From positions 1 through 64,000 of the forward strand of contig NZ_JADDOL010000021.1 of the NCBI RefSeq assembly GCF_016906305.1: a stretch of 64,000 nucleotides of DNA, read 5' to 3'. This document shows positions 29,412 to 38,841 of the stretch, piece after piece. Made by a program: the position numbers and the translations under genes. The stretch comes from Alloalcanivorax marinus (lineage in GTDB: Bacteria > Pseudomonadota > Gammaproteobacteria > Pseudomonadales > Alcanivoracaceae). Under the pieces are notes generated by a model. The model ran no database searches. It saw only the letters and a program-made list of their open reading frames with translations, and was not told where the DNA came from. Position 1 is the first letter of the stretch; every line of letters begins with the position of its first letter.

Positions 29412-29888
29412 TTGGCCATTACCCACACTGACCGTGCCCATCTGGAATACTGCCTGGACCTGGCCGAGCAGGCCCTGGAAGCCGGCGACCAGCCGTTCGG
29501 CTCGCTGCTGGTGGACGAAGACGGCACCGTGCTGCTGGCCGCCCGCAACCGTGTCGGCGACGGCGACCACACCCAGCATCCGGAATTCGAGATCGCCCGC
29601 TGGGCGGCGCAAAACCTGCCGGCGGAACAGCGCGCCCGCGCCACCGTCTACACCTCCGGCGAGCACTGCCCCATGTGCGCCGCCGCCCACGCCTGGGTGG
29701 GCCTGGGCGCCATCGTTTACGCCAGCTCCGGCGAGCAGCTGCGCGGCTGGCGCATGGAGATGGGCCTGCCGCCGTCGCCGGTGGCCGGTCTGTCGATCCG
29801 TCAGGTGGCCCCGAACGTGCCGGTCACCGGCCCGGTGCCGGACCTGGCCGAGCGGGTACGGCGGCTGCACGAGCGCTGCCACGGGTAG
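29412..29888 (+). CDS. Nucleoside/guanine deaminase-fold protein, TTG start (158 aa)
   Basis: No ATG fits; TTG 29412 lies six bases after AGGAG and gives MAITHTDRAHLEYCLDLAEQAL. The deaminase motif is degenerate in the first half: HPEFEIARWAA replaces the usual HAE, keeping His and Glu with two residues between. TSGEHCPMCAAAHAW supplies the cysteine pair. Other family marks are DQPFGSLLVDEDGTVL and GLGAIVYASSGEQL. It resembles guanine or nucleoside deaminases, but the altered first motif makes substrate and activity uncertain. It stands 34 bases after the hypothetical gene. Confidence 0.8.
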   Translation: MAITHTDRAHLEYCLDLAEQALEAGDQPFGSLLVDEDGTVLLAARNRVGDGDHTQHPEFEIARWAAQNLPAEQRARATVYTSGEHCPMCAAAHAWVGLGAIVYASSGEQLRGWRMEMGLPPSPVAGLSIRQVAPNVPVTGPVPDLAERVRRLHERCHG

Positions 29889-29964
29889 GAAACGACCTTC
29901 TTGGCGTTTAAAACCTGGTGATCGACAAAAAGGACAGATGTTGGCGCTCCGGGGGGGGGGCATA

Positions 29965-29982
29965 ATGTGATTTGCGTCACAT
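29965..29982 (+). promoter_or_regulatory. CRP/Vfr-type operator upstream of the HXS cassette
   Basis: ATGTGATTTGCGTCACAT is a perfect TGTGA-N6-TCACA palindrome, 74 bases before the hxsB start. It follows a run of ten G residues. The placement fits activation or repression of the hxsB-hxsC-hxsA transcript by a CRP-family regulator. Confidence 0.65.
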
Positions 29983-30055
29983 GTTCTGTTTGTGATAATA
30001 AAACAAAAAATAAATAGACCTAGAAATACTGAAATGAACTTTTGGGGGTGGGAGG

Positions 30056-31486
30056 GTGAGCTACGATTCCATTGGTCTCCCGTTTAAATACCGAAGTTTG
30101 TCCGACGAATCCGTTGTGGCCGTCTCTGAGTCGGGTGACCATATATTTCTTTCCCGGCGAGAGCTCGATCTGCTAACGGAAAGCCCTGACCAGCTTCCGC
30201 TCAATCTTCGGTCGGATTTGAAGGCGCGGTTTTTCCTAAAGTCAAAATTCTCCCCAGGCACCGACTGGTTACTGAAATCAAGGAAGGCGGCGGGGCGCGA
30301 GACGGTCGCCGGCGGTCCCTCCCTGCATATCATTGTCCCGACACTTCAATGTGAGCACTCATGCCAGTACTGCCAGGTCAGCCGTGCCCTGGACGACGAC
30401 ACTCATGTCATGTCCAAGGACAATCTGCAGTTGGCATGCCGAACAATTTTTCAGAGTGAGAGCCAGAACCTGACCGTGGAGTTTCAGGGAGGGGATCCGC
30501 TGTTGCGCTTTGATCTGGTTTTGAGCGCCATGCAGCAAATCAGCGACATCAATAAAAGCGAAAATCGGAATATACGATTCGTTGTCGCAAGTACCCTGCA
30601 TCAGCTGACGCCGGACATGTGTCATATACTGAAGGCATTTGGCGCCTATCTATCAACTAGCATCGATGGTCAAGCTCTTCTGCATCAGCGGAACCGACCG
30701 ATTCCGACCGGTAACGCCTATGAAAGAACCATGGCGGGTGTGACGTTGGCGCGTTCGATCATGGGTGAGGATTCCGTCGCGGCCTTGATGACTACGACGA
30801 AGGCATCGCTCGAATTTCCAGAGCAGATAGTGGACGAGTATGTGAGGTTGGGTTTTGGCGAGATTTTCATTCGACCTCTAAGCTCCTACGGATTCGCCAA
30901 AAGAAATCAGAAAAGGTTGGGCTATTCTCTTTCAGAGTTCATGGAATTTTACCAAAGGTCCTTTGAGCGAGTTCTGTATTGGAATGACCAGGGCGTCCCC
31001 ATCAGAGAGGTTTACGGAGCCATTCTCCTGAACAAGATTCTGTCACCTTTTGATTCAGGGTACGTGGATTTGCAAAGCCCCACGGGCGCGGGGTTGGCGA
31101 CACTGGTCTATAACTATGATGGCTTTGTGTATCCAAGTGATGAGGCTCGCATGTTGGCCGAGTCCGGGGATCATGGGCTGAGGCTGGGACCTATCGGCGA
31201 GCCTCTCGACCAGCTTCTCGGTACGTCTGTACAGAAAGACCTTATACAAGCCAGCCTGGTGGAGGAGACCGCCGGTTGTCTGGATTGTGCCTACAGTGCT
31301 TATTGCGCACCCAATCCAGTGGACGCCTATGCCCAGCATGGCGACCTTTACGCCTTCCCGCCGCAAACGGAGCATTGCCAGCGACACACCATGTTGTTCG
31401 ATTTCTACATGGAAAAGATAAAAGACGCTGATATGAAGACGCGTAAAGTATTTCACGAATGGGCCTTCTCCGGGGGAGATACATGA
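30056..31486 (+). CDS. hxsB: His-Xaa-Ser system radical SAM maturase HxsB (476 aa)
   Basis: The start is GTG 30056 in a G-rich context (GGGGGTGGGAGG). The radical SAM cluster site is CEHSCQYC (Cys99, Cys103, Cys106) after SLHIIVPTLQ. A glycine-rich strand VEFQGGDPLLRFD follows, and a C-terminal SPASM-like cysteine set is seen in ETAGCLDCAYSAYCAPNP and HCQRH. This is the HxsB type, one of two radical SAM enzymes that accompany a His-Xaa-Ser repeat protein. The chemistry performed on that protein is unknown. It overlaps hxsC by four bases (ATGA). Base composition is AT-richer than the flanks. Confidence 0.93.
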   Translation: MSYDSIGLPFKYRSLSDESVVAVSESGDHIFLSRRELDLLTESPDQLPLNLRSDLKARFFLKSKFSPGTDWLLKSRKAAGRETVAGGPSLHIIVPTLQCEHSCQYCQVSRALDDDTHVMSKDNLQLACRTIFQSESQNLTVEFQGGDPLLRFDLVLSAMQQISDINKSENRNIRFVVASTLHQLTPDMCHILKAFGAYLSTSIDGQALLHQRNRPIPTGNAYERTMAGVTLARSIMGEDSVAALMTTTKASLEFPEQIVDEYVRLGFGEIFIRPLSSYGFAKRNQKRLGYSLSEFMEFYQRSFERVLYWNDQGVPIREVYGAILLNKILSPFDSGYVDLQSPTGAGLATLVYNYDGFVYPSDEARMLAESGDHGLRLGPIGEPLDQLLGTSVQKDLIQASLVEETAGCLDCAYSAYCAPNPVDAYAQHGDLYAFPPQTEHCQRHTMLFDFYMEKIKDADMKTRKVFHEWAFSGGDT

Positions 31487-32628
31487 GAAAAACAGCCGCG
31501 TCGATTCAGAGGAATACGGCGACCGTGCCTCACAGAGTGGTCGACTTCGGCGATCTGATGTCGGAGTGGGCGCCGGAGCTTCACTTTCTTGCCAGAGCCC
31601 ATGACCAGCACGAAAGAGAGACAATCGAGCACCTCTCCCGCTCGGGTTTAAACAATATTGGCTGGATTCAGGATGGCCCCGACTTCGAAGATGGCGACCT
31701 GATTGTTCCAGCGCACGGCAAGCTGCAAAGTCCGGTTATTTACCGGGAGGGAGACAGGCACCACGCGCTTCAGGTCACCAATCGATGCAACAGTAAGTGC
31801 CTGATGTGCTCTCAACCGCCGACGACTCAGAACGACGATTGGATGCTGGAAGAGGCCTATATGGCCGTGAATACCATTCGGAAGATGCCCGATGTGCTCG
31901 GCATAAGCGGTGGTGAGCCACTGCTCAATGCGAAGGGGTTGCGGCGACTGATTGACCTGGCGCATTCGAAAAGGCCGGATACTCTCATAGAAGTCTTGAG
32001 CAATGGCCGCGGTTTTTATCATGGGGCAATCGTCGACGCGGCCTTGCAGGGCCAATTGGATGGGGTTCGTTGGCTTATTCCGCTGTATGGGCATTGTGAC
32101 TATCTGCACGACTATGTTGTGCAGTCGGCAGGTGCGTTCGAGGAAACTTTATGTGGGCTTCTTGAGCTTCAGCGCCGGAACCAGCCGATCCAGCTAAGAA
32201 TTGTGCTCATCAGGCCAGTGTTGGAGGCGCTTTCGGCGCTCTGCCGTTTTATTGGTAAGAATCTTCCCTTTGTTTCCGAGGTGGCTCTGATGGCCTGTGA
32301 GCCAATCGGATTCGCCCTCGCTAACAGAGCGATTTGTGAAGTGGATTTGAAAGATTGGCATGGACAGCTGTTAGAGGCGGCCGAGGAACTGGATAACTAC
32401 CATGTGCCTTATGTGTTCATGAACGCACCGCTTTGTTCGTTGCCTGCAGAGCTTCAACCGGCGGCACATCGAAGCATCTCTGACTGGAAGAACGTATACG
32501 ACCAGGAATGTCAGAGTTGCTCAATGAAAAACCGGTGCTGTGGTTTGTTCGCTTGGTACGAAAAGGGCTGGCAGCCGACAAAAATACAGGCAATCAAGGA
32601 GGTGTACAGTGAAGAAGTTTGTAACTAG
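31483..32628 (+). CDS. hxsC: His-Xaa-Ser system radical SAM maturase HxsC (381 aa)
   Basis: The ATG follows CGGGGGAGATAC. The cluster motif is CNSKCLMCSQPP (Cys102, Cys106, Cys109), the diagnostic HxsC form. The strand VLGISGGEPLLNAKGL carries the GGE-type SAM-binding motif, and a cysteine-rich tail (DQECQSCSMKNRCCGLFAWY) probably holds an auxiliary cluster. It lies between hxsB and hxsA and overlaps both, which implies tight translational coupling. Its exact reaction is not known for any member of the family. Confidence 0.94.
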   Translation: MRKTAASIQRNTATVPHRVVDFGDLMSEWAPELHFLARAHDQHERETIEHLSRSGLNNIGWIQDGPDFEDGDLIVPAHGKLQSPVIYREGDRHHALQVTNRCNSKCLMCSQPPTTQNDDWMLEEAYMAVNTIRKMPDVLGISGGEPLLNAKGLRRLIDLAHSKRPDTLIEVLSNGRGFYHGAIVDAALQGQLDGVRWLIPLYGHCDYLHDYVVQSAGAFEETLCGLLELQRRNQPIQLRIVLIRPVLEALSALCRFIGKNLPFVSEVALMACEPIGFALANRAICEVDLKDWHGQLLEAAEELDNYHVPYVFMNAPLCSLPAELQPAAHRSISDWKNVYDQECQSCSMKNRCCGLFAWYEKGWQPTKIQAIKEVYSEEVCN

Positions 32629-33169
32629 CTTGGCGCTTTTTATCGCCAGTGTTCCGGTCTTGAGTGGAAAGACCGCGCTGGCCTCCACATCATTCGATGG
32701 TTCAGCATTGCCGGATGGGCAGGATAAAGGGCCCGTTTCATTAAGGCCCCTGAATGATGTGTACGACAATCTTTTTGCCGGGCACCGGTCCCATTCAAGC
32801 CACCGTTCGCACTCCAGTCATCGCTCTCATTCCTCTCACTATTCGAGCTCCAGCTATAGAAGCCCGTCTCCGACCTACAGTGCTCCGGCATACAGTGGCA
32901 GCGGATCCTCGTCATCCTCCGGATCGACATATTCTTCACACGGTGCGTCAGGCGGCACCGAAACCCACTACAGCAAGCTGCAGATGCAGGTGATGCGTGT
33001 GCAGATCAAGTTAACAAGCATCGGTCTTTATAGCGGTCGGATTGACGGAATCCTCGGTCCTGCCACCCGCGCGGCTCTGGAGAAATATCAGCAGCAAAAC
33101 AGCCTGGCGGTAACTGGCCGTATGACGACCGAGACGATGAATATGCTCGGTATTCCTGCGGTCAATTGA
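32609..33169 (+). CDS. hxsA: His-Xaa-Ser repeat protein HxsA, exported, with peptidoglycan-binding domain (186 aa)
   Basis: GTG 32609 sits after AAGGAGGTGTACA inside the end of hxsC. A signal peptide (KKFVTSLALFIASVPVLSG, to about residue 26) directs export. Residues 59-79 are seven consecutive His-Xaa-Ser triplets (HRS, HSS alternating, then HYS). A Ser/Tyr/Pro-rich linker runs to about 118. A C-terminal PG_binding_1 domain starts near 125 (VMRVQIKLTSIGLYSG, IDGILGPATRAALEKYQ). The repeat is the presumed substrate of HxsB/HxsC, giving a modified protein held at the cell wall. A metal- or redox-active product is plausible but unproven. Confidence 0.93.
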   Translation: MKKFVTSLALFIASVPVLSGKTALASTSFDGSALPDGQDKGPVSLRPLNDVYDNLFAGHRSHSSHRSHSSHRSHSSHYSSSSYRSPSPTYSAPAYSGSGSSSSSGSTYSSHGASGGTETHYSKLQMQVMRVQIKLTSIGLYSGRIDGILGPATRAALEKYQQQNSLAVTGRMTTETMNMLGIPAVN

Positions 33170-33202
33170 TCGCTCGTTTTCAGCGGCGCCTTTGGGTGTG
33201 GC

Positions 33203-33898
33203 CTACTCTTTCTTCGGCGCGGCTTTTTCCAGGGCCATGAGCGTGTCCACGTAGCCCACGAACCGTTCCAGGTAGCCGGGGGCGATGCCCTGCAGGCGCT
33301 CCAGGGCGCGCACCACCTGACGGTGGGCGTTGAGGGGGCCGGCGTCGCCGGTGGGGTGGTCCACCGCATGGCGGATGCGCCGGGCGGTGTGCTGGCGGGC
33401 GCGGCTGGCTTGCAGGGTGGCCAGGGTTTTCAGTTCCCGGCGCGGGGCGTTCTGGTCGCCGCGCTGGTCGGCGCGCAGGCGCCGGTGCTGGGTGTCCAGC
33501 AGCGCCTCCAGGGCGTCGCCGTCCGCGCCGGCGGCGGCGATTTCGCCGTGGTCGCGCAGGCGGTGGGTCAGGTCGGCCAGCGAGGCAAGGGCCGGTTCCG
33601 GTTGTCCGGCCAGTCGGCGCACGCCTTTGTAGTCGCCGGCGTCGTACAGGGCCTGAAGGCGTGCTTGGCGGGTGTCGTCTTTCGCCTGGGCGAGCAGTCT
33701 TTCCGCCTCGTCCCTGGCCTGGTGAAAAGCCCGTTCGAAGGCCGGCAGGCGATCCGACAGGGTGGCGCCGGCGCCCCGGCGGGCCAGGCTTTCCAGGTAG
33801 TGGAAGCGCACCGGGTCGTAGTGCGCCGCACCCTGGTCGCGCAGGGCGTCCAGGCGCTGACTGGCTTCACTCCAATGAGCATCACTCACCGGCGGCAT
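33203..33898 (-). CDS. DUF2894 protein of the DUF802 operon (231 aa)
   Basis: A soluble, largely helical, Arg/Ala-rich protein ending in charged residues. It begins MPPVSDAHWSEASQRLDALRDQGAAHYDPVRFHYLESLARR and has a long charged middle (RLRDHGEIAAAGADGDALEALLD). Content and position identify the DUF2894 family, which is found with DUF3348, DUF802 and OmpA-like genes. It is the last gene of the four-gene run and overlaps the OmpA-like gene by 17 bases. Function unknown; a cytoplasmic partner of the membrane pair is likely. Confidence 0.82.
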   Translation of the reverse strand: MPPVSDAHWSEASQRLDALRDQGAAHYDPVRFHYLESLARRGAGATLSDRLPAFERAFHQARDEAERLLAQAKDDTRQARLQALYDAGDYKGVRRLAGQPEPALASLADLTHRLRDHGEIAAAGADGDALEALLDTQHRRLRADQRGDQNAPRRELKTLATLQASRARQHTARRIRHAVDHPTGDAGPLNAHRQVVRALERLQGIAPGYLERFVGYVDTLMALEKAAPKKE

Positions 33899-37626: not shown

Positions 37627-38841
37627 TCAGGCCACCGCCGGCGTGCGCGGGAAGGCACGGATCCGCAAAGCCAGCAGCAGCGCCACCAGCAGCGCGGCGC
37701 AGGTGAAGCCCACCGCCAGATGAAAACCGCCGCTGAACTCGATCAGCCAGCCGGCGATGGCCGGCCCCAGAAACTGGCCGCCGGCGAAGAACACGGTGAC
37801 GTAGCTGAAGGCGATGGGGATGAAACGCGGCGCCACCTGATCGGTGCTGGCGGCCTGGATCATGGTGAAGGCGCCGTTCATGGCGCAGCCCATCAGCAGG
37901 AAGTGCAGGAAGAAAATGAGCAGGCTCTGGCTCAGCAGCGGCAGCCCCATGGCCACCGAGACCACGGCGATGGCCAGGGCCAGGGCGTTGCCGCGCCCCC
38001 AGATGTCGGACAGCGAACCCCACAGCGGGCCGCTGGCCACCGACAGCAGCCCGGACATGGCCAGCAGCCAGCCGGCCACGTCGTCGCCGTGACCGGCCTC
38101 CACCACATAGCTGACCATGAAGATTGACTGGATGATGTAGACCATGCCGATCACCCCGTAGACGGTGGCCATGGTGATCACCCGGGGATGACGGTAGATG
38201 CGCCATTTGTCCGCCGGCGCCGGCCGCTGCGGGTCGTCCACCGCCACCGGTTGCGGGTCGCGCACCGCCACCAGCACCAGCACCACGGTGAGCGCCGCGG
38301 TCGCCCCGAACAGGCCCCAGGCCAGCCGCCAGCCGTGCTCGCCGAAGGCGGCGGACAGCCAGGGCACCAGCAGGCCGGTGGCGAACAGGCCGGCGCCCAC
38401 TCCGGCGCTCATGCAGCCGATCACCAGGCCGCGCTTGTCCGGGTACCAGGTGGCCAGCAGCGACACCATGGGGGCGAAGCAGAACGCGGTGCCCAGCCCC
38501 AGCAGCCCCATCAGCGCGATGATCAGCCGGTAGTCCGAGGCCAGGGCCAGGCCGGTGAACGCCAGGGTCAGAATAAACAGGCCCAGGGCCACCGCCCGGC
38601 GGGCGCCCCAGCGGCCGGCGGCCACGCCGCCCACCAGCACGAACAGCAGATAGCCCAGGGCGGTCACCGTGCCCAGATTGCCCGCCTGCCGATAGCTCAG
38701 CGCCAGGTCCTCGCGCATGGGCGGCAGAATCACGCCATAGGCGAGCCGCGCGAACACGATGGCCACCAGCGCCGTCAGAATGCCGCCGGTCACCATGACG
38801 ATGGCGTTGGGGCGGTGCGGCGGTGGCGTAACGAGCGACAT
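37627..38841 (-). CDS. MFS transporter (404 aa)
   Basis: Twelve hydrophobic segments in two six-helix halves are present. The loop after helix 2 reads AAGRWGARRAVALG, the MFS signature, and LWGSLSDIWGRGNALA repeats it in the second half. Starting FARLAYGVILPPMREDLALSYRQAGNLGT, it resembles YbfB-like and cyanate-permease-like carriers. Substrate is not deducible. It stands as a single gene, 90 bases from the end of the DUF3348 start region. Confidence 0.9.
   Translation of the reverse strand: MSLVTPPPHRPNAIVMVTGGILTALVAIVFARLAYGVILPPMREDLALSYRQAGNLGTVTALGYLLFVLVGGVAAGRWGARRAVALGLFILTLAFTGLALASDYRLIIALMGLLGLGTAFCFAPMVSLLATWYPDKRGLVIGCMSAGVGAGLFATGLLVPWLSAAFGEHGWRLAWGLFGATAALTVVLVLVAVRDPQPVAVDDPQRPAPADKWRIYRHPRVITMATVYGVIGMVYIIQSIFMVSYVVEAGHGDDVAGWLLAMSGLLSVASGPLWGSLSDIWGRGNALALAIAVVSVAMGLPLLSQSLLIFFLHFLLMGCAMNGAFTMIQAASTDQVAPRFIPIAFSYVTVFFAGGQFLGPAIAGWLIEFSGGFHLAVGFTCAALLVALLLALRIRAFPRTPAVA

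Follow-up and report, generated by a model that had tools for sequence, protein, structure and literature searches.

The His-Xaa-Ser (HXS) family has reportedly been known since the work of Haft and Basu in 2011. Its four-gene form, HxsABCD, is represented by the models TIGR03976–TIGR03979, and maturation by HxsB and HxsC is called putative in the available excerpt of PMC9062424, which cites Haft and Basu 2011. In the open-access literature searched we found no biochemical study of the HXS system, and nothing on HxsD-less cassettes as a shared trait or on HxsD divergence or fusion; the available portion of PMC7159879 held nothing on HXS. Here we describe an HXS locus at positions 29965–33169 of a 64,000-nucleotide stretch of the Alloalcanivorax marinus genome (contig NZ_JADDOL010000021.1; the whole stretch is referred to as the window). 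The cassette is a stripped-down, HxsD-less variant of the known system, and the explanation that we favour, with a probability of roughly 0.6, is that a self-contained, minimal hxsB-hxsC-hxsA cassette was acquired horizontally and operates without hxsD by the mechanism proposed below.

All three proteins exceed the cut-offs of their NCBIfam equivalog models (HxsB, 532.5 bits against a cut-off of 370; HxsC, 326.5 against 267.9; HxsA, 150.2 against 121.65), so that the family assignment made in a preliminary description of this DNA holds. The genes and motifs of the two radical S-adenosylmethionine (SAM) maturases and their putative substrate are as follows.

30056–31486, + strand: hxsB, radical SAM/SPASM maturase, 476 amino acids, GTG start, TIGR03978 match
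30350–30373, + strand: CxxxCxxC radical SAM cluster motif of HxsB (C99, C103, C106), invariant in a 14-sequence alignment
31483–32628, + strand: hxsC, second radical SAM maturase, 381 amino acids from the overlapping ATG, TIGR03977 match
32609–33169, + strand: hxsA, His-Xaa-Ser repeat protein, 186 amino acids, GTG start, TIGR03979 match
32609–32686, + strand: signal-peptide-like N-terminal stretch of HxsA (VKKFVTSLALFIASVPVLSGKTALAS), judged by eye from the sequence
32783–32845, + strand: seven consecutive His-Xaa-Ser triplets, HxsA residues 59–79, from the sequence
32987–33148, + strand: PG_binding_1 domain, HxsA residues 127–180 (PF01471, 55.1 bits, cut-off 23)
33158–33173, + strand: terminator-like hairpin at the end of hxsA, from a consensus scan

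The coordinates agree with the gene overlaps described earlier, 4 bases between hxsB and hxsC and 20 bases between hxsC and hxsA (hxsC has an alternative, longer frame from 31459), and the seven triplets and the peptidoglycan-binding domain ascribed to HxsA were both recovered. The CxxxCxxC clusters and cysteine-rich tails noted in both enzymes likewise stood up to comparison: these cysteines are invariant among 14 aligned HxsB sequences and kept in 41/41 HxsC sequences, and by alignment the radical SAM and auxiliary cysteines of both window proteins are intact. The hairpin is a weak feature, because three such sites were seen against 3.5 expected by chance.

The window locus lacks the hxsD that stands beside hxsB in the four-gene form. 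The deaminase gene to the left ends 167 bases from hxsB, a gap too short for an HxsD of 90–115 codons. The standard model, TIGR03976, which was searched against 15 genomes and matched in 4, had no match at E≤10 in the window's genome (G000, 99.99% complete). As the sole test for hxsD this model was rejected, since at E≤10 it is blind to four Pseudomonas genomes and a Halopseudomonas genome that carry an HxsD homologue beside hxsB; absence by TIGR03976 alone is therefore insufficient, and because of this insensitivity two broader HxsD profiles were used. A 13-sequence profile again gave no match at E≤10 in the window's genome, and a 21-sequence profile, run on the 1153 six-frame open reading frames (ORFs) of the window, reached at best E 27, in an ORF far from the cassette. 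The preliminary description had seen no evident hxsD up- or downstream and had proposed a genome-wide search with hidden Markov models; neither the local reading nor that search has turned up one.

How far this absence is shared was judged from 44 HXS loci (the window, 10 genome contigs, 23 other genomes, 8 plasmids and 2 viral contigs), a sample that leans towards the window's clade and gives no estimate of frequency, because 12 of the loci came from searches with segments of the window's HxsB. Entries L001–L030, L041–L073 and L096 add no separate loci to this count, being either places covered again by longer stretches or weak radical SAM matches; L097 duplicates L031, and L078 was not used. 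With the 21-sequence profile HxsD was clear in 33 loci (E≤2.3e-8; 21 of them in the profile's training set, 12 outside it), weak in three (G202, E 0.0013; G518, E 0.033; G176, E 0.4) and without match in eight: the window, G025, Achromobacter insuavis, Acidovorax sp. NB1, Pelomonas sp. Root1217, a Nitrosomonadales metagenome-assembled genome (MAG), a Roseomonas plasmid and G465. The last has an 80-codon ORF at the HxsD position, which may be a very divergent HxsD. All 36 clear or weak matches lie within ~330 bases 5′ of hxsB.

The five HxsD-less relatives of the window's clade have HxsB proteins 54–61% identical to that of the window, open hxsB, hxsC and hxsA frames, and 6–8 triplets. The 13-sequence profile, run on 15 genomes, left the six HxsD-less genomes of the near clade (G000, G025, G143, G148, G149 and G150) without any match at E≤10, and it found clear HxsDs in G144, G145, G147, G151, G939, G1181 and G846, the last two outside its training set. 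Judged by these profiles, the absence of HxsD is common to the window and its five clade relatives.

Within the same clade (HxsB at least 53% identical), TIGR03976 gave no HxsD match in 11/11 genomes searched, and an ORF of ~95–115 codons nevertheless stands directly 5′ of hxsB in the four Pseudomonas loci, in Halopseudomonas and in G939. From position and sequence we take these upstream ORFs to be divergent HxsDs. A profile of six near-clade HxsDs, one of them the HxsD part of locus L108, ranked the HxsDs of other loci 1st–9th of 6756 ORFs (E 0.045–4.7); an hhalign comparison of near-clade with canonical HxsD scored 26.9, with none of 60 column-shuffled decoys exceeding 14.4; and a profile restricted to canonical HxsDs placed G939 and Halopseudomonas 1st and 2nd of 3190 ORFs (E 0.12 and 0.53), with L107 at rank 5 (E 19).

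Other arrangements were seen around hxsD. In four loci (L092, L093, L094 and L095) a short ORF that runs up to the hxsB start resembles an extremely divergent HxsD; three of these ORFs have weak profile scores, and that of L093 (G465) has no match. In an IMG/VR contig, HxsD and HxsB share one continuous 603-codon open frame (L108:4605–6413), which is possibly a natural fusion or could reflect a one-base sequencing error. G395 has a second ORF (E 0.043 with the HxsD profile) between HxsD and hxsB (L084:4688–5429), possibly making two HxsD copies, and in G1181 two short HxsA2-like precursors stand in tandem 5′ of hxsD-hxsB (L103:1883–3286).

A maximum-likelihood tree of HxsB plus HxsC (41 loci, LG+F+G4, 1000 ultrafast bootstraps; L039, L103 and L106, in which no HxsC frame was found, left out) supports the near clade at 100% and the pairing of the window with G025 at 100%. 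The HxsD-less Nitrosomonadales MAG pairs with the HxsD-bearing G939 (95%). It is possible, at somewhat less than even odds, that HxsD is a dispensable accessory which one branch of HXS has variously let diverge, fused to HxsB or lost, and that HxsB and HxsC alone suffice to modify the tract. As to what HxsD itself is, the best of five models of its fold (HxsD of L170, 10-sequence alignment) had a pLDDT of 76.4 and a pTM of 0.54, the other four having pLDDT below 50, and the model found no clear structural relative (best Foldseek E 0.043; best VIA-align Z 7.3, a value typical of no clear match).

Comparison with other genomes of the genus places the whole cassette in an inserted segment, bounded as follows.

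29415–29888, + strand: left flanking gene, cytidine/deoxycytidylate deaminase family (PF00383), outside the cassette; adjoins the DUF2894 gene in four same-genus genomes
29890–33197, no strand assigned: inserted segment of ~3.3 kb with the entire cassette, from blastn against same-genus loci L148–L151 and from GC content
33203–33898, − strand: right flanking gene, DUF2894 (PF11445, 124.8 bits), outside the cassette and convergent with the deaminase gene

The deaminase is matched in five of the 12 other genomes examined from the genus (in four at 80–97% identity, in one at 42%) and in none of the remaining seven; in all four with the closer match the DUF2894 gene follows directly, the insertion site being empty. 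In G003, whose DNA is 94–95% identical, window bases 29889 and 33198 are only 22 bases apart, and by blastn the spacing between the flanks is 105, 70 and 140 bases in G002, G011 and G012. The extra 3308 bases have a GC content of 0.528, against 0.685 and 0.711 in the flanks. Outside the three genes the insert comprises ~166 bases 5′ of hxsB and 28 bases 3′ of hxsA, and the other frames listed within it fall inside hxsB, hxsC or hxsA. No inverted or direct repeats were found at the insertion ends (29800–33300). Horizontal acquisition, with insertion where two convergent genes meet at their 3′ ends, is thus part of the explanation favoured above, and a cassette in that position probably carries its own promoter.

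HXS is patchily distributed: HxsB exceeds its cut-off in 4/143 relatives, 14/398 genomes of the phylum and 5/390 of the order, the window's own genome being included in each count. HXS matches were present in 415/72,556 plasmid records, 318 of the 415 from Klebsiella, and transposase or plasmid genes lie nearby in six of the eight plasmid neighbourhoods (that of Nostoc lists none, and that of Microvirga is unannotated). HXS genes are listed together with conjugative-element genes in Pseudomonas aeruginosa (an excerpt of PMC8446631) and lie within a strain-variable stretch in Vibrio parahaemolyticus (an excerpt of PMC6537148), sites that, as far as these excerpts go, fit this patchy distribution. 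Scans of viral contigs turned up seven loci with HxsB of the Klebsiella type and none with the Paraburkholderia or the Aeromonas type; the seven Klebsiella-type cassettes (L165–L171) are in contigs catalogued as viral, and two of them, L168 and L170, are only 75–76% identical in HxsB. An Aeromonas salmonicida plasmid has a DUF5334 gene directly 3′ of hxsA (L080:9221–9424).

Upstream of hxsB, within the insertion, is a candidate regulatory site.

29966–29981, no strand assigned: perfect CRP/Vfr-type palindrome TGTGA-N6-TCACA, TGTGATTTGCGTCACA, inside the insertion, 75–90 bases 5′ of the hxsB start

The perfect CRP site of the preliminary description was thus confirmed as a perfect match, its start lying at 29966, one base from the 29965 given there. 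Nine perfect CRP palindromes occur in the 4.05 Mb genome, against none for a reversed control pattern. With one mismatch allowed the window holds two sites, where shuffled sequences have a mean of 0.83 and at least two in 21/100; only the perfect match carries weight, because the one-mismatch count is not above chance. The genome encodes a Vfr orthologue (L163; best PDB match 7few, E 1.4e-104), so that the locus has both the perfect upstream site and the regulator expected of a member of the Vfr/CRP regulon. A scan of 29850–33300 found no sigma-70 consensus promoter (2.2 expected by chance), which fits an activator-dependent promoter and is no proof of one. The cyclic AMP (cAMP)-type control proposed earlier is plausible on these grounds. 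Another perfect palindrome of the genome (L159, G000:C55:25270–25285) lies beside a frame that we take to read like glycerol kinase, presumably a usual CRP target.

The predicted structure of HxsB (AlphaFold, mean pLDDT 86.6) offers one way in which HxsD might be dispensed with, through the following region.

30056–30310, + strand: strands and helices at the HxsB N-terminus, matching the N-terminal parts of CteB (5wgg, 5why) and TigE (8vpo) in the structural alignment, but not that of SuiB

With VIA-align the model matches CteB (5wgg) at Z 31.0 over 405 residues (4.0 Å, 18% identity) from residue 8, and TigE (8vpo) at Z 24.9 over 394 residues (4.7 Å, 15% identity) from residue 1; the match to anSMEcpe (Z 32.7) covers the core only. 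The N-terminal part of CteB we take to be a peptide-binding RRE domain, and SuiB presumably carries such a domain too. The corresponding region of HxsB may be RRE-like, and this resemblance to CteB and TigE may explain why HxsD is dispensable.

By the mechanism that we propose, cAMP-bound Vfr would switch the operon on from the site at 29966. On the evidence of its predicted structure, the N-terminal region of HxsB would bind the N-terminal part of HxsA, so that HxsD is unneeded, and HxsB and HxsC, by means of their SAM-cleaving and auxiliary iron–sulphur clusters, would act in the cytoplasm to introduce at least one bond or oxidation into the His-Xaa-Ser triplets, as family membership and co-occurrence suggest. 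HxsA would then be exported by its signal-like stretch and held on peptidoglycan through its C-terminal domain match, and the modified tract would, to speculate, probably form a periplasmic metal or redox site.

Several results weigh against this explanation. The RRE-like reading of HxsB is weakened because the SuiB alignments skip the N-terminal part, beginning at residue 84–85, and the region is aligned by only three chains among the 50 matches listed (two CteB entries and TigE). As a conserved feature of the clade the CRP site was rejected, the best counterpart in 13 other clade loci having 3 mismatches of 10 (~320 bases 5′ of the first gene); since it lies within inserted DNA and is unconserved in the clade, it is uninformative on HXS in general. 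The hhalign probability relating canonical to near-clade HxsD is 36.5% or 47.3%, and the canonical-only profile misses the other Pseudomonas ORFs among the 3190 ORFs searched. The 13-sequence profile finds nothing at the positional candidate of G465 and reaches only E 0.3 at G176. In the tree, the grouping of the window and G025 with Achromobacter, Acidovorax and Pelomonas, all HxsD-less, has support of only 78%; if HxsD was once present and lost, there were two losses in the clade besides that of the Roseomonas plasmid outside it, a number left loose by this node.

The shortcomings of the profiles, and the fast divergence of HxsD that TIGR03976 overlooks, speak for a rival reading, in which a very divergent and so far unrecognised gene at another place in the genome provides HxsD function in trans. 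The confinement of all 36 matches to the immediate 5′ side of hxsB, the empty 13-sequence search of G000 and the arrival of the cassette as a single insertion without room for hxsD make such a gene unlikely. Alternatively the cassette might be decaying, HxsA no longer being modified for want of HxsD: a usual component is absent, as is the MauG-like partner of some relatives. Yet the three frames are open, the invariant cysteines and seven triplets are kept, and the five HxsD-less relatives retain open frames and 6–8 triplets at 54–61% HxsB identity, unexpected under neutral decay, and we consider decay quite unlikely.

HxsD might instead have been absorbed, becoming an added domain of HxsB or HxsC, and the single 603-codon frame of L108 is a possible precedent. 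In the window, however, the lengths of HxsB and HxsC are within the range of HxsD-bearing systems, and the HxsC frame scores E 36 with the 21-sequence profile, whose best window ORF is the distant one at E 27; an HxsD hidden in either protein was accordingly rejected, with no profile support and ordinary lengths, and absorption is very improbable. There is, finally, the idea that HxsA is not the substrate, or not the sole one, and that the enzymes modify some other peptide. Small peptides are the substrates of many radical SAM/SPASM maturases, and a short HxsA2 replaces HxsA in some HXS loci; against this, the three genes fill the insert but for the ~166 and 28 bases, with all other frames inside genes, and a His-Xaa-Ser run lies within 3.5 kb of hxsB in 43/44 loci, the lone exception (L039) being on a contig that ends just after hxsB. 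Another substrate is very improbable, and horizontal acquisition of a self-contained three-gene cassette remains the explanation that we prefer.

Neighbouring genes gave no usable lead to function: the only ones found to recur, and that in some loci, were TIGR03981 and TIGR03982. In the Pseudomonas loci and L107 a TIGR03982 protein and a MauG-like di-haem protein, TIGR03981, are encoded 3′ of hxsA, the two genes following hxsA directly in L032 (9209–10964), L033, L034, L035 and L107; the pair is possibly a second maturation step. TIGR03981, labelled ‘His-Xaa-Ser system-associated’ by NCBIfam, exceeds its cut-off in 8/34 HXS genomes (G745, G036, G051, G144–G147 and G151) and is close to the cassette in seven of the eight, that of G151 being on another contig. 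In L077 a MauG-like gene near the cassette is in two pieces with in-frame stops (G112:C1:847399–848600). None of the six HxsD-less near-clade genomes exceeds the cut-off of 340 bits (best 149 in Achromobacter, 104 in G025 and 99 in the window genome, where the match, at 99.4 bits, is on contig C1 and the cassette on C14), and the Pseudomonas MauG-like protein had no tblastn match in the window at E≤1. HxsD is present in 9/9 genomes with a TIGR03981 gene, G112 included, a link that is one-sided because many HxsD-bearing genomes, for example G939, are without TIGR03981. A tblastn match of the Pseudomonas TIGR03982 protein at 38080–38202 of the window, − strand (41 residues at 34% identity, E 0.003, covering one third of that protein), is 5 kb from the cassette and probably due to chance.

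By leaving out both HxsD and the MauG-like protein, each a candidate component, the natural three-gene form cuts a reconstitution down to two enzymes and one substrate. Were HxsD dispensable, no natural HXS system would be simpler than the HxsD-less cassettes, and they would offer the best starting point for identifying the modification. Because the standard HxsD model misses divergent HxsDs, tables of presence and absence built on TIGR03976 alone are unreliable.

Set beside the known HxsABCD system, the window locus passes the HxsA, HxsB and HxsC models and has no match for HxsD; its insertion and CRP site are particular to it, whereas the three-gene form belongs to part of the clade. Cassettes of Klebsiella and Aeromonas plasmids have the same B-C-A order, but there hxsD precedes. 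The HxsD-less clade loci (G025, Achromobacter insuavis, Acidovorax sp. NB1, Pelomonas sp. Root1217 and the Nitrosomonadales MAG) resemble the window in HxsB, in B-C-A order and in the lack of an HxsD match, and differ from it in their neighbouring genes, where these were read, and in CRP sites with at least 3 mismatches. The TIGR03981 and TIGR03982 type of Pseudomonas mandelii (L032) belongs to the same clade (HxsB 57% identical) but has kept a divergent HxsD and has the di-haem MauG-like enzyme and the TIGR03982 protein after hxsA. Among solved radical SAM maturases of ribosomally synthesised and post-translationally modified peptides, CteB and TigE are alike to the predicted HxsB fold over its full length, the N-terminal part included, although they differ in sequence, at the 18% and 15% identity given above, and act on other substrates.

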